Shown here piece after piece: positions 24,905 through 28,934 of a DNA stretch of 64,000 nt. The position numbers were made by a program, and so were the translations under genes. How positions within the stretch are numbered: position 1 is the first letter of the stretch; every line of letters starts with the position of its first letter. The notes under the pieces were generated by a model that worked only from the letters and a program-made list of their open reading frames with translations, was not told the DNA's origin and searched no databases. The DNA is from Rhodanobacter sp. Soil772 (GTDB lineage Bacteria; Pseudomonadota; Gammaproteobacteria; Xanthomonadales; Rhodanobacteraceae): positions 222,689 to 286,688 of the forward strand of contig NZ_LMSK01000003.1 of NCBI RefSeq assembly GCF_001428385.1, given 5' to 3'.

Positions 24905-24941
24905 ATTGATTGTCTGGATCGGACGAATAGCCTGCAGCTAT
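24905..24941 (-). promoter_or_regulatory. OxyR-type site upstream of rubrerythrin
   Basis: Four 4-base elements spaced by exactly seven bases: ATTG, GGAT, ATAG, CTAT (matches 3, 2, 4 and 4 of 4 to ATAG-N7-CTAT-N7-ATAG-N7-CTAT). It overlaps the oxyR stop codon. Just downstream on the minus strand a weak TTTCAG-18-TAGGCT promoter could be OxyR-activated and drive rubrerythrin. Confidence 0.55.
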
Positions 24942-25909
24942 CGGCGCGCCGCCTTGCGCGCGGGCCGGACGGGTTCCGCCGGCACGGCGGGCGAGGCTGC
25001 CGTATGCGGGTTCAGCAGATCGGCCGGCAGTTGCCGGAACACCGCCGCCATCCGCTTCAGGAATCCGGCCATCGCCGAACTCTTGCGCCAGACCATCGCG
25101 ACACGCCGGCTCGGCGGCTGGCCCTTGAACTCGATCAGGTGCAGGTTATCCAGCGGCGCCACCGGCGGCTTCACTGCGGTGACTGGCAGCAGGGTGATGC
25201 CGACGTTCGCCGCCACCATCTGCCGCAGCGTCTCCAGGCTGGTGGCGCGGAAACCGCTGCGCTCGACGGCGCCGGCGAGGTGGCACACCTCCAGCGCCTG
25301 GTCGCGCAGGCAGTGGCCGTCTTCCAGCAGCAGCAGGTTCTGGTTGGACAGGTCGGCCAGTTTCAGCTGGCCTTGCTTGTGCGCCAGCGGATGGGCTTCC
25401 GACACGGCCAGCAGGAAGGGTTCTTCGAACAGGAACTCGGTATGCAGGCTGTCTTCGTGCAGCGGCAGGGCGAGGATGCCGGCGTCCAGCTTGCCCTCGC
25501 GCAACAGGCGCAGCACCGCCTCGGTCTTTTCCTCGACCAGCAGCAGTTCCAGCTGGGGGAACGCCTTGCGCACCAGCGGCAACGCATGCGGCAGCAGATA
25601 CGGCCCCAGGGTGGGGAAGATGCCCAGCCGCACCGTGCCGGATTCCGGATCCAGCGTGCGCCGGGCCACGCTGCGGATCTGCTCGATGCCGTTGAGCACG
25701 TCGCGCGCGCGGATGGCGATGTCGCGGCCGACTTCGGTCAGCAGCACCTTGCGCGGGGTGCGCTCGACCAGCGGCACGCCCAGTTCCTCCTCCAGTTTCT
25801 TGATCTGGGTGGACAGGGTGGGCTGGCTGACGAAGCAGGCCTCGGCCGCGCGGCCGAAGTGGCGATGCTCGGCCAGGGCCACCAGGTACTGGAGATCGCG
25901 CAGATTCAT
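24938..25909 (-). CDS. oxyR: hydrogen-peroxide-sensing LysR regulator OxyR
   Basis: OxyR is the LysR-type peroxide sensor. From ATG 25909 it is 323 aa, starting with the helix-turn-helix MNLRDLQYLVALAEHRHFGRA. The redox cysteines are C200 and C209 in CLRDQALEVC, with the same spacing as C199/C208 of E. coli. The C-terminus has a ~20-residue Ala/Pro/Arg tail. An upstream in-frame ATG would place the start inside the predicted OxyR site, so 25909 is chosen. Transcribed toward rubrerythrin, which it probably controls. Confidence 0.95.
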   Translation of the reverse strand: MNLRDLQYLVALAEHRHFGRAAEACFVSQPTLSTQIKKLEEELGVPLVERTPRKVLLTEVGRDIAIRARDVLNGIEQIRSVARRTLDPESGTVRLGIFPTLGPYLLPHALPLVRKAFPQLELLLVEEKTEAVLRLLREGKLDAGILALPLHEDSLHTEFLFEEPFLLAVSEAHPLAHKQGQLKLADLSNQNLLLLEDGHCLRDQALEVCHLAGAVERSGFRATSLETLRQMVAANVGITLLPVTAVKPPVAPLDNLHLIEFKGQPPSRRVAMVWRKSSAMAGFLKRMAAVFRQLPADLLNPHTAASPAVPAEPVRPARKAARR

Positions 25910-25928
25910 GGATCGTCCCGGCTCGGCA

Positions 25929-25965
25929 ATAGCCATACGCTATGGCTGGGATGGTAACAATCAAT
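25929..25965. promoter_or_regulatory. OxyR-type binding site between oxyR and the divergent unit
   Basis: ATAG-N7-CTAT-N7-ATGG-N7-CAAT with exact seven-base spacing (4, 4, 3 and 3 of 4 matches). It begins 20 bases before the oxyR start codon, the usual place for OxyR autoregulation. Its right end abuts a promoter reading in the plus direction. Confidence 0.75.
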
Positions 25966-25994
25966 TGGAGCAATGCAAGCGAGGGTCCTATGCT
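25965..25994 (+). promoter_or_regulatory. predicted OxyR-activated plus-strand promoter
   Basis: TTGGAG (25965-25970) and TATGCT (25989-25994) are 18 bases apart, directly next to the OxyR site. The weak -35 touching the regulator site is the arrangement expected of an OxyR-activated promoter. Predicted start: A at about 26001. Confidence 0.45.
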
Positions 25995-26000
25995 GTGCCC

Positions 26001-26109
26001 ACGTTGTGCTTTTGACACCCCGCGCGCTGGAGCTCCCCCTCCCTCTCCCCCGCAGGCGCGCGGGCTTCCCCGGCCGGTGATGAAGCTTGCTTCGTCGCCG
26101 GTTTTTTTT
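26001..26109 (+). ncRNA. candidate OxyR-controlled small RNA (OxyS-like position)
   Basis: The predicted transcript of about 109 nt runs from the promoter beside the OxyR site to a strong terminator. Its first hairpin has a 9-bp GC stem (26019-26027 with 26056-26064) and a 28-base loop that is almost entirely C and T, able to pair with G-rich ribosome-binding sites. Its second hairpin is the terminator. Position and size recall E. coli OxyS, divergent from oxyR, but there is no evident sequence similarity. It could instead be an attenuated leader of the aminopeptidase gene. Confidence 0.45.
26074..26109 (+). terminator. intrinsic terminator upstream of the aminopeptidase gene
   Basis: A 12-bp stem with two wobbles (26074-26085 with 26090-26101), loop CTTG, then eight T (26102-26109). 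It lies 120 bases before the aminopeptidase start and 110 bases after the OxyR site, so it must end a short transcript or a leader. Confidence 0.85.
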
Positions 26110-26231
26110 CGCCTTTCTCCGCAGGCGGTTCCGCGTCGCGCCTGCCGCGCGGCGGGCATGCCTTCTGGCACTGGGTCGGAAGTCATGCCGCCTCTAGTTT
26201 GGGGTTTTCCCCCACGCCAGAGAAAGTTCTC

Positions 26232-28934
26232 ATGCGCCGACTCGTCCGTCCTCTTCTGCTCACCGCGCTGGCCGCCTGCTGCGGCGCCGCGTTTGCCGCC
26301 ACCGCCGATCAGGCGCCGCAGGGCCGCTTGCCCGGCTGGGCCGTGCCGCAGTCCTACCAGCTGGCGTTCAAGGTCGATCCGGCGCAGCAGGATTTCTCCG
26401 GCACCACCACGATCAAGGTCAAGCTGACCCAGGCCTCCGACCACCTGTGGCTGGACGGCGCCGAGTTGAAGGTGTCGAAGGTGACGATCACCGACGCCGC
26501 CGGCAAGGCGCACGCCGGCAAGTACGTCGCGGTGGATCCGAAGGCCGGCGTGGTGCGGGTGGATTTCGGCAGCACCCTCAAGCCGCAGCAGCTGACCGTG
26601 AAGTTCGAGTACACCGCGCCGCTCAACGCGCAGCTGCAGGGCCTGTACAAGGTCACCGCGAAGGGCCAGCCGTACGCGATGACGCAGATGGAACCGATCA
26701 GCGCGCGCTTCGCCTTCCCCGGCTTCGACGAGCCCGGCTTCAAGACCCCGTTCGACCTCAGCATCACCGTGCCCGACCACGAAAACGTGGTGGCGAACAC
26801 CCAGCAGGTGAAACAGGCGCCGGCCGGCAAGGGCTGGAAGACCGTGACGTTCGCGCAGACGCTGCCGCTGCCGACCTACCTGGTCGCGTTCGCGGTCGGC
26901 CCGTGGGACATCGTCGCCGGCCCGGACATCTCGCCGACCGCTTATCGCGCCAAGCCGCTGCAGCTGCGCGGCATCGCCGCCAAGGGCGAAGGCCAGCGCA
27001 TGCAGCACGTGCTGGGCGAAACGCCGAGCATCATCCACGCGCTGGAAAACTACTACGGCTTCGGCTACCCGTTCGACAAGCTCGACCTGCTGGCCGCGCC
27101 GGATTTCGAGGCTGGCGCGATGGAGAACCCGGGCCTGGTCACCTTCCGCGACTGGCTGCTGCTGATCGACAAGGATTCGCCGGCGCGCAACGTGCAGGGC
27201 TCGTTCAACGTCAACGCGCATGAACTGGCGCATCAGTGGACCGGCGACACGGTGACCACCGAATGGTGGAACGACATCTGGCTCAACGAGGCGTTCGCCA
27301 CCTGGATGCAGCAGAAGGTCACCATGCAGGTGCACCCGGAATACCGCGCCGACCTCGACCGCGTGCGCGGCGGCCAGGGCGCGATGAACAACGACAGCCT
27401 GGTCAGCGCGCGCAGTATCCGCCAGCCGATCACCGGCAACGGCGACATCATGACCGCGTTCGACGGCATCACCTATCAGAAGGGCGCCAGCGTCATCGGC
27501 ATGTTCGAGAACTACGTGGGCGAGAAGACCTACCAGAAGGGCATGCGCGCGTACATCCAGAGCCAGAAGTACGGCAACGCCACCGCCGACGACCTGGTCT
27601 CGGCGATCGCCACCGCGGCCGACAAGGGCGATGCGTTCAAGCACGCCTTCAAGAGCTTCCTCGACCAGTCCGGCGTGCCGTACGTGGCGACCAAGCTGGA
27701 GCAGAAAAACGGCCAGACCGTGCTGCAGCTGAGCCAGAGCCGCTACCTGCCGCTCGGCAGCCGCGGCGACGCGCAGCGCATCTGGGGCGTGCCGGTGTGC
27801 GTGCGCTACGGCACCGCCGCCAGCGGCAAAGATGGAGCACCGTCCAGCAAGGTGGCCTGTGAAATGCTCGACAAGGCAACCGGTTCGATGGTGCTGGCCG
27901 GCGCCAGCAAGCCGACCTGGATCATGCCGAACGCGAACGCCAGCGGCTATTACCGCTTCAGCCTCGACAAGTCGGAACTGGACGGGCTGGTCAAGCAGGT
28001 CGGCAAGCTCAGCGATGCCGAGCAACTCGCCTACGCCGACGCGATCAGCGCCAGCTTCCGCCATGGCGACCTCGATGCCGGCGACATGCTGGCCGCACTG
28101 CAGCCGTTGACCGCTTCGAAAATCCGCGAAGTGGCCACCGTGCCGCTGGACCAGGCGGCGCAGCTCTACCACCGCATCGCTGCCACCGATGCGCAGCGCG
28201 CCCGCCTGGCCGACTGGGCGAAGGCGGCCTACCTGCCGCGCCTGGAGCAGCTCGGTTACCAGCGCAAGGCGGGCGAGCCGGAAGACGACTCGCTGATGCG
28301 CAGCAGCCTGGCCAGCTCGCTGGCGTTCGATTTCAAGCTGCCGGAAGTGCGTGCAGCCCTGCTCAAGCAGGGTGAGGCGGCACTCAAGCCGAACGCGGAT
28401 GGCCGTCTGAACCTGGCCGCCGCCGATCCCGACCTGCTCGGCGATGCGCTGGGCGTGGCGGTGCAGGAACATGGCAAGAGCGCGGTCGATGCGTTGATCG
28501 CCGAGCTGCCCAGGACCAGCGATCCGGCCCTGCGCAACGGCATCCTCGGCGGCCTGGCCAGCGTGGAGGATCCGGCGCTGACCGAGCAGGTGCGCAACTT
28601 CGCCCTGACCAAGCCGGTCAAGGTCGGCGAGATGGGCATGCTGCTGCGCGCCGGCCGCGACACCCTGGCCCAGCGCAACGCGATGTGGACCTGGTTCACC
28701 GCCCACTACCAGCAGATCCTCGATCGCACCGGCAGCTTCTCCGGCGGCCGGCTGCCGTCGCTGGCCGGTGGCGGCGGCTGCAGCACGGCCGAGTACGAAC
28801 GCCTGCAGGCGTTCTTCAAGCCGCGCGAGAAAGATGCCGCCGGCATCGGCCGCGGCCTGGCGCAGACCGGCGAATCGATCCAGTTGTGCAGTGCGCTGAA
28901 AGCGAAGCAGGATCCGGCCGCGATCCTGCGCTGA
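26232..28934 (+). CDS. M1 family zinc aminopeptidase
   Basis: 900-aa metallopeptidase of the M1 (aminopeptidase N) family. GAMENPGLVTF is the substrate N-terminus motif. HELAH (H330, E331, H334) with NEAF (E353) forms the zinc site, and an ERAP-like C-terminal domain follows. The leader MRRLVRPLLLTALAACCGAAFAA could be cut by signal peptidase I (AFA|A) or act as a lipobox (LAAC), so the enzyme is exported and perhaps lipid-anchored. ATG 26232 is preceded by AGAGAAAG. The 5' leader contains the terminator at 26074-26109. Confidence 0.93.
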   Translation: MRRLVRPLLLTALAACCGAAFAATADQAPQGRLPGWAVPQSYQLAFKVDPAQQDFSGTTTIKVKLTQASDHLWLDGAELKVSKVTITDAAGKAHAGKYVAVDPKAGVVRVDFGSTLKPQQLTVKFEYTAPLNAQLQGLYKVTAKGQPYAMTQMEPISARFAFPGFDEPGFKTPFDLSITVPDHENVVANTQQVKQAPAGKGWKTVTFAQTLPLPTYLVAFAVGPWDIVAGPDISPTAYRAKPLQLRGIAAKGEGQRMQHVLGETPSIIHALENYYGFGYPFDKLDLLAAPDFEAGAMENPGLVTFRDWLLLIDKDSPARNVQGSFNVNAHELAHQWTGDTVTTEWWNDIWLNEAFATWMQQKVTMQVHPEYRADLDRVRGGQGAMNNDSLVSARSIRQPITGNGDIMTAFDGITYQKGASVIGMFENYVGEKTYQKGMRAYIQSQKYGNATADDLVSAIATAADKGDAFKHAFKSFLDQSGVPYVATKLEQKNGQTVLQLSQSRYLPLGSRGDAQRIWGVPVCVRYGTAASGKDGAPSSKVACEMLDKATGSMVLAGASKPTWIMPNANASGYYRFSLDKSELDGLVKQVGKLSDAEQLAYADAISASFRHGDLDAGDMLAALQPLTASKIREVATVPLDQAAQLYHRIAATDAQRARLADWAKAAYLPRLEQLGYQRKAGEPEDDSLMRSSLASSLAFDFKLPEVRAALLKQGEAALKPNADGRLNLAAADPDLLGDALGVAVQEHGKSAVDALIAELPRTSDPALRNGILGGLASVEDPALTEQVRNFALTKPVKVGEMGMLLRAGRDTLAQRNAMWTWFTAHYQQILDRTGSFSGGRLPSLAGGGGCSTAEYERLQAFFKPREKDAAGIGRGLAQTGESIQLCSALKAKQDPAAILR

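Follow-up and report, generated by a model that had tools for sequence, protein, structure and literature searches.

What is encoded between oxyR and the aminopeptidase gene that follows it in Rhodanobacter sp. Soil772, and why should an OxyR site stand there? We analyzed a window of 64,000 nucleotides, part of a genome of 3.57 Mb (G000), in which the original prediction placed a small RNA under OxyR control. The features discussed below are as follows.

24938..25909, minus strand: oxyR, gene for a LysR-type peroxide sensor, divergent from the predicted RNA
25929..25943, plus strand: left OxyR half-site ATAG-N7-CTAT, a motif match
25950..25965, plus strand: right OxyR half-site GATGGTAACAATCAAT, adjoining the -35
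25966..25995, plus strand: putative weak promoter TTGGAG-18-TATGCT, read from the sequence
26001..26109, plus strand: predicted RNA of ~109 nt, its presumed start placed from the -10
26019..26064, plus strand: hairpin 1, a 10-bp GC stem closing a C/U-rich loop of 26 nt, from the fold
26072..26109, plus strand: hairpin 2, an intrinsic terminator with eight T, from the fold and a terminator scan
26232..28934, plus strand: aminopeptidase N-like gene (pepN), its best NCBIfam matches being aminopeptidase N models, all below cut-off

An OxyR site and a candidate RNA divergent from oxyR

The oxyR product has the NCBIfam OxyR model as its top match (E 1.3e-94), with 316.9 bits falling slightly below the cut-off of 329. 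A full OxyR-type site with exact 7-base spacing had been claimed upstream of the RNA, and a pattern scan confirmed it: ATAG-N7-CTAT-N7-ATNG-N7-CNAT is matched exactly at 25929-25965. With up to three mismatches allowed, the scan gave five matches, compared with 0.52 expected from shuffles; two are this same site on either strand and two are a site at 24905-24941. The latter, which departs from the pattern at one base when read on the minus strand, precedes a rubrerythrin-like gene located after oxyR, which suggests that OxyR may control a further peroxide-detoxifying enzyme.

The proposed promoter fared less well. Its letters are in place, but they agree with the sigma-70 consensus at only 3/6 and 4/6 positions, and a consensus scan found no promoter; nor were single consensus promoters found. 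A poor sigma-70 consensus would suit an activator-dependent promoter.

The MFE fold of the element has -47.6 kcal/mol and a z of -3.59, a value that none of 200 shuffles matched. The GC stem and C/T-rich loop of the original prediction are present, with 26019-26028 pairing with 26055-26064, but the loop measures 26 nt rather than the 28 bases announced, and four loop bases are paired within it: GGAG pairs with CUCC, leaving the tract partly closed in the window genome. The strong terminator expected ~109 nt past the predicted start is there, as a hairpin at 26072-26103 with eight T running up to 26109. No Rfam family matches the element; the sole window hit at gathering level is a tRNA, and in 11 related loci no family attains its gathering score. 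We rejected a small protein encoded in the predicted RNA, as no reading frame is common to the 23 ahpC-less genus genomes (window included); frames of 22-24 codons that open with GTG or TTG occur in a few close relatives.

Past the terminator, a conserved block with a palindrome of the TGCC-TTCT-GGCA type occupies 26146-26200, upstream of pepN, in the 23 ahpC-less genomes. By eye, it also occurs in many pepN loci with or without the RNA, and it is perhaps an operator or an unusual promoter. The aminopeptidase gene itself is not thought to be part of the RNA and stands as its downstream neighbor.

The element in relatives with and without ahpC

At the DNA level, 28 of 60 genomes proved to contain the stretch, every one of them within the genus. 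In six of them (G004, G015, G016, G017, G018 and G027), the parts carrying the site and the hairpins lie ~620-700 bases apart. The gap in G016 is filled by a gene for an AhpC-type peroxiredoxin, with ahpD after the terminator, and ahpC and ahpD are found at the same place in G004 and the five others of this set.

We then ran the covariance search that the original prediction had put forward as a check. A model built from 24 genus sequences (R1) scores the window, itself one of the 24, at 90.5 bits. At E ≤0.01, and under filtering that drops weaker matches, it matched 36 of the 45 genomes in the genus and 85 of the 233 in the family. Among 40 loci fetched from these matches, 32 carry the element beside oxyR, 20 of them behind ahpC and 12 without ahpC. 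We set aside the other eight, weak matches away from oxyR (E 7.8e-7 to 0.005), as probable chance. In ahpC carriers, other genera included, the same OxyR site is followed first by ahpC, then by the element and then by ahpD. The element has the position of a 3'UTR-derived sRNA, behind a coding gene, in 20 of the 32 oxyR loci; this is not so in the window itself, as G000 has no ahpC orthologue. Genome comparison supports the original claim of a small RNA that stands free, is controlled by OxyR and has a C/U-rich loop, through its position, compensatory changes, diverged flanks and the lack of a shared ORF. In relatives, the element is the ahpC 3'UTR and ahpC-ahpD spacer.

CU-loop hairpins with other stems were found behind ahpC in genera g22, g23, g35 and g37 by a hairpin scan, and by eye at the same place in Lysobacter L153. 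Three further observations concern related loci. Repeated units of the type GTAGGAGCGCACCCTGTGCGCGA lie between ahpC and ahpD at L198 (G020), where they apparently replace the element. At two ahpC-less loci of genus g25 with a full OxyR site (L234 and L235, of G123 and G126), successive C/U-rich hairpins fill the oxyR-pepN gap, several seen by eye and one by the hairpin scan; such a series is possibly a multi-loop version of the RNA. In Xanthomonas vasicola, an Rfam sX9 match (L146:1354-1430) lies ~3.6 kb from oxyR.

The two hairpins show compensatory changes. In alignment A1, 12 of 25 pairs changed on both sides and 95.1% of cells are paired; none of 500 shuffles reached the changed-pair count, the paired-cell share or the covariation score, while 69 of 500 had as many further pair types as A1. 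These shuffles ignore relatedness, and the structure was drawn from the same sequences. Slid versions of A1 gave at most 2 pairs and 52.9%. Both hairpins contribute, with 5 of 12 modeled pairs changed on both sides and 94.2% of cells paired in hairpin 1, and 7 of 13 and 96.0% in hairpin 2. RNAalifold also returned both hairpins from alignment A2 (25 sequences from several genera), with 10 of 14 pairs changed on both sides; nine of these ten lie in the terminator and one in hairpin 1, for which only four pairs were predicted.

Conservation along the locus was measured as mean pairwise identity among the 23 ahpC-less genus genomes, with each gap scored as a mismatch; the segments were delimited by eye and deviate from the fold by 1-3 bases. 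The right half-site stands at 0.97, the left at 0.76 and the -10 at 0.70. From 0.43 between the start and the stem, identity rises to 0.87 and 0.85 in the two arms of stem 1. The loop has 0.68, the terminator hairpin 0.67 and the T run 0.90, and identity falls to 0.20 past the terminator. Among ahpC-less genomes, hairpin 1 is decaying in G214 and reduced in G212.

Probable loss of ahpC and the fate of the OxyR half-site

An AhpC orthologue, 88-100% identical, is present in 15 of the 45 genus genomes. We rejected relocation of ahpC, as the best match in the remaining 30 is a paralogue of 36-39% identity. Across the family, AhpC was found in 91 of 233 genomes at E ≤1e-60. Within the genus, 12 genomes have both gene and element (G010 is doubtful, its R1 match overlapping the end of ahpC), 24, the window genome among them, the element alone, 3 ahpC alone (one being G020) and 6 neither. 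Some assemblies are incomplete (G211 85%, G214 86%, G011 and G005 89%), and their loci show oxyR and pepN with no ahpC between them.

We counted losses on an OxyR tree of 104 rows, made by a quick search that left 37 of 101 inner branches with support below 80. Its rows are those with a full oxyR at hand rather than a random sample, and include 41 of the 45 genus genomes (G011, G020, G022 and G215 were left out). Both ahpC and element occur in 33 rows, the element alone in 36, neither in 24 and ahpC alone in 11. The element state came from the hairpin scan, followed by hand edits; in each region, 0-11 of 100 mononucleotide-shuffled versions also give a scan hit. Nine rows were set to plus from R1 (G010, G025, G029, G134, G143, G144, G145, G212 and G214), whereas G096 was set to minus despite its scan hit. 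What the scan had matched in G145 was the terminator, and the other eight of the nine are carriers by R1 match only. Lysobacter L150 and L153 were scored as minus by the scan, despite a CU-loop hairpin seen by eye in L153.

On the assumption that ahpC, present in the outer rows, was only ever lost (regain being possible), the best tree gives 21 losses, 11 of them in sets holding a row with the element. Collapsing branches below 80 leaves 13 losses, 7 in such sets, and collapsing those below 95 leaves 10 and 5. Two of these last five have R1 matches, namely Rhodanobacter and the set of g28, g31, g33 and g44; the sets of g22, g23 and g25 owe their element to the hairpin scan and position. In five genomes (G078, G080, G093, G123 and G126), none of them among the R1 matches, the element was called by the hairpin scan, and 3-11 of 100 shuffled versions of their regions give a hit as well; without these five, 2 retained losses stand at support 95.

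Within Rhodanobacter, the -35 of the 23 ahpC-less genomes reads TTGGA in 20 and TTGGG in G212. The other two, G007 and G209, have TTTGA, common among ahpC carriers, together with longer, different leaders, which suggests at least two losses of ahpC within the genus. By eye, the bases before the stem in some ahpC-less genomes resemble the ahpC 3'UTR of carriers; this would put the end of the deletion near the ahpC stop codon.

We further compared the OxyR half-sites across these states, scoring them against a genus-derived consensus that favors the genus. The left half-site averages 7.5-8.0 of 8 in every state. The right one, read at the expected distance and scored out of 16, averages 14.6 with the element alone, 13.4 with both, 11.6 with ahpC alone and 8.5 with neither. 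When the best match within 140 bases of oxyR is taken instead, 33 of 36 ahpC-less rows with the element score at least 12, compared with 2 of 24 without it. The three element-alone rows below this value are G078 (9) and G080 (8), both of g22, and G093 (10), whose ahpC-carrying relatives score 11; G128 and G136 are the rows with neither ahpC nor element in which the half-site is kept. Phylogenetically independent contrasts on supported branches number four, ~2 concordant and almost none discordant, and are not significant. The predicted half-site is thus strongly associated with the element in the raw counts, with too few independent contrasts for significance.

A proposed regulatory RNA and its alternatives

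We propose that the element encodes a regulatory RNA with a CU loop, activated by OxyR, which is part of the 3'UTR in ahpC carriers and free-standing after loss of ahpC, and put the probability of this reading, drawn from sequence comparison, at about 60%. The ancestral order would have been oxyR, the divergent OxyR site, ahpC, the element and ahpD, if the direction of the changes is as we infer. The lineage of the window would have lost ahpC and ahpD, bringing the element directly behind the ahpC promoter. Oxidized OxyR would then drive the RNA alone, with transcription from the predicted start and induction by peroxide as expected consequences. The CU loop, conserved and presented by a stem as in CU-loop sRNAs, would most likely pair with G-rich ribosome-binding sites and lower translation of target mRNAs in peroxide stress. 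Perfect 8-nt partners close upstream of an ATG number 4 in the own genome, against 4 in a reversed control; none lies before a convincing gene, and target prediction by perfect complement led nowhere.

The element might instead be a mere cis device of the ahpC-ahpD operon, stabilizing the 3' end of ahpC mRNA and attenuating ahpD, and a leftover in genomes without ahpC. Its place between the two genes in carriers and its terminator end fit such a device, and signs of decay fit a leftover: the half-site has decayed in G078 and G080 while their hairpins remain, and the hairpin of G214 is decaying. The half-site association also comes without significant independent contrasts. We nevertheless consider this unlikely, since in the 23 ahpC-less genus genomes conservation of the flanks is far below that of the stems, the loop and the T run, and the activating half-site is kept in 33 of the 36 ahpC-less carriers. 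The original prediction had named another alternative, an attenuated OxyR-controlled leader of the aminopeptidase gene from which some transcripts read through into pepN. That gene is indeed next, in the same direction, in the window and in most ahpC-less genus genomes examined. Yet the element also precedes ahpD, and two ahpC-less loci with it, L078 (G256) and L122 (Dyella sp. OK004), have no pepN match nearby. The block of 0.75 identity before pepN is separated from the terminator by the stretch of 0.20, and a similar block, by eye, precedes pepN in ahpC-less genomes that lack the element. Taken together, these observations make a pepN leader improbable.

We regard as slightly more improbable still that the RNA is a protein-binding decoy, such as an RsmA/CsrA sponge acting through a GGA on the loop's 5' side. 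Of 24 genus sequences, 20 have GGAG in the loop beside the stem, and the 3'UTR-derived RsmU of Xanthomonas offers a precedent, as far as the accessible part of that report goes (PMC7694677). However, GGA is absent from the other four and from many A2 sequences of other genera, in which the pyrimidine tract is still there.

Our preferred reading, an OxyR-activated CU-loop RNA, bears on function as well. Judging from the genomes compared, more than one loss of ahpC seems to have left the element in place with its peroxide switch unchanged; an RNA so retained probably has a role of its own. Many bacterial sRNAs stem from mRNA 3' ends, and a separate role of the tail is hard to prove. Here, evolution seems to have run the deletion experiment repeatedly: the coding gene is gone, and the tail and its peroxide switch stay. 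We suggest tentatively, at a little under even odds, that these OxyR-controlled CU-loop RNAs form a family so far undescribed, whose age may reach back to the common ancestor of Rhodanobacter and Lysobacter, and which began as an ahpC tail and became independent several times, the RNA and not the peroxidase being under lasting selection. In a literature search, mostly among papers outside subscription, we recognized no description of this RNA in the text available. Natural sets of strains with and without ahpC, and with and without the element, offer material for testing a peroxide-responsive RNA outside enterobacteria.

Comparison with known RNAs

The original prediction likened the RNA to OxyS. 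In E. coli, OxyS is divergent from oxyR, lies behind an OxyR site and is ~110 nt long with an intrinsic terminator at its end; peroxide induces it through OxyR, and it pairs with its targets in an Hfq-dependent manner. The likeness stands in position and predicted control, the element likewise pointing away from oxyR and having an OxyR site by its putative promoter, a predicted length of ~109 nt and an intrinsic terminator, but it extends neither to the Rfam model nor to the fold. We rejected membership of the OxyS family, which we take to be RF00035, as 25900-26240 gave no Rfam OxyS match at E up to 5 and the fold differs: the element has two hairpins and a CU-rich loop, and would derive from an ahpC 3'UTR element.

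The original prediction also pointed to C-rich-loop RNAs such as sX13 in Xanthomonas. In the accessible part of the sX13 report, mRNAs bearing G-rich motifs close to their start codons are repressed through the C-rich loops of sX13, without need of Hfq; the gene adjoins polA, and the RNA forms three stems, each with C-rich loop sequence, and is described as constitutively expressed (PMC3771888). Like sX13, which comes from the neighboring family of Xanthomonadaceae, the element would be a structured RNA exposing a C-rich loop, and by analogy its loop may act like those of sX13. It differs in lying between oxyR and pepN with two main hairpins, outside what that text defines as sX13.

The loops of CcsR1-4 in Rhodobacter sphaeroides carry the CU-rich motif CCUCCUCCC. 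In the part of the literature accessible on them, these alphaproteobacterial RNAs derive from the 3'UTR of ccaF1 and are induced by oxidative stress (PMC8625941). Our element has a CU-rich motif as well and would resemble them in its proposed 3'UTR origin and predicted induction by oxidative stress; it differs in that the 3'UTR is that of ahpC rather than ccaF1 and the host is not an alphaproteobacterium. A parallel in arrangement is MalH/MicX of Vibrio, where, according to the section available of a review, one locus yields, depending on the species, either an RNA cut from the 3' end of an mRNA or an RNA transcribed from a promoter of its own (PMC9438474). The same alternation by species would hold here, with the difference that in the ahpC-less genomes the coding genes are gone and the predicted RNA stands behind their promoter.
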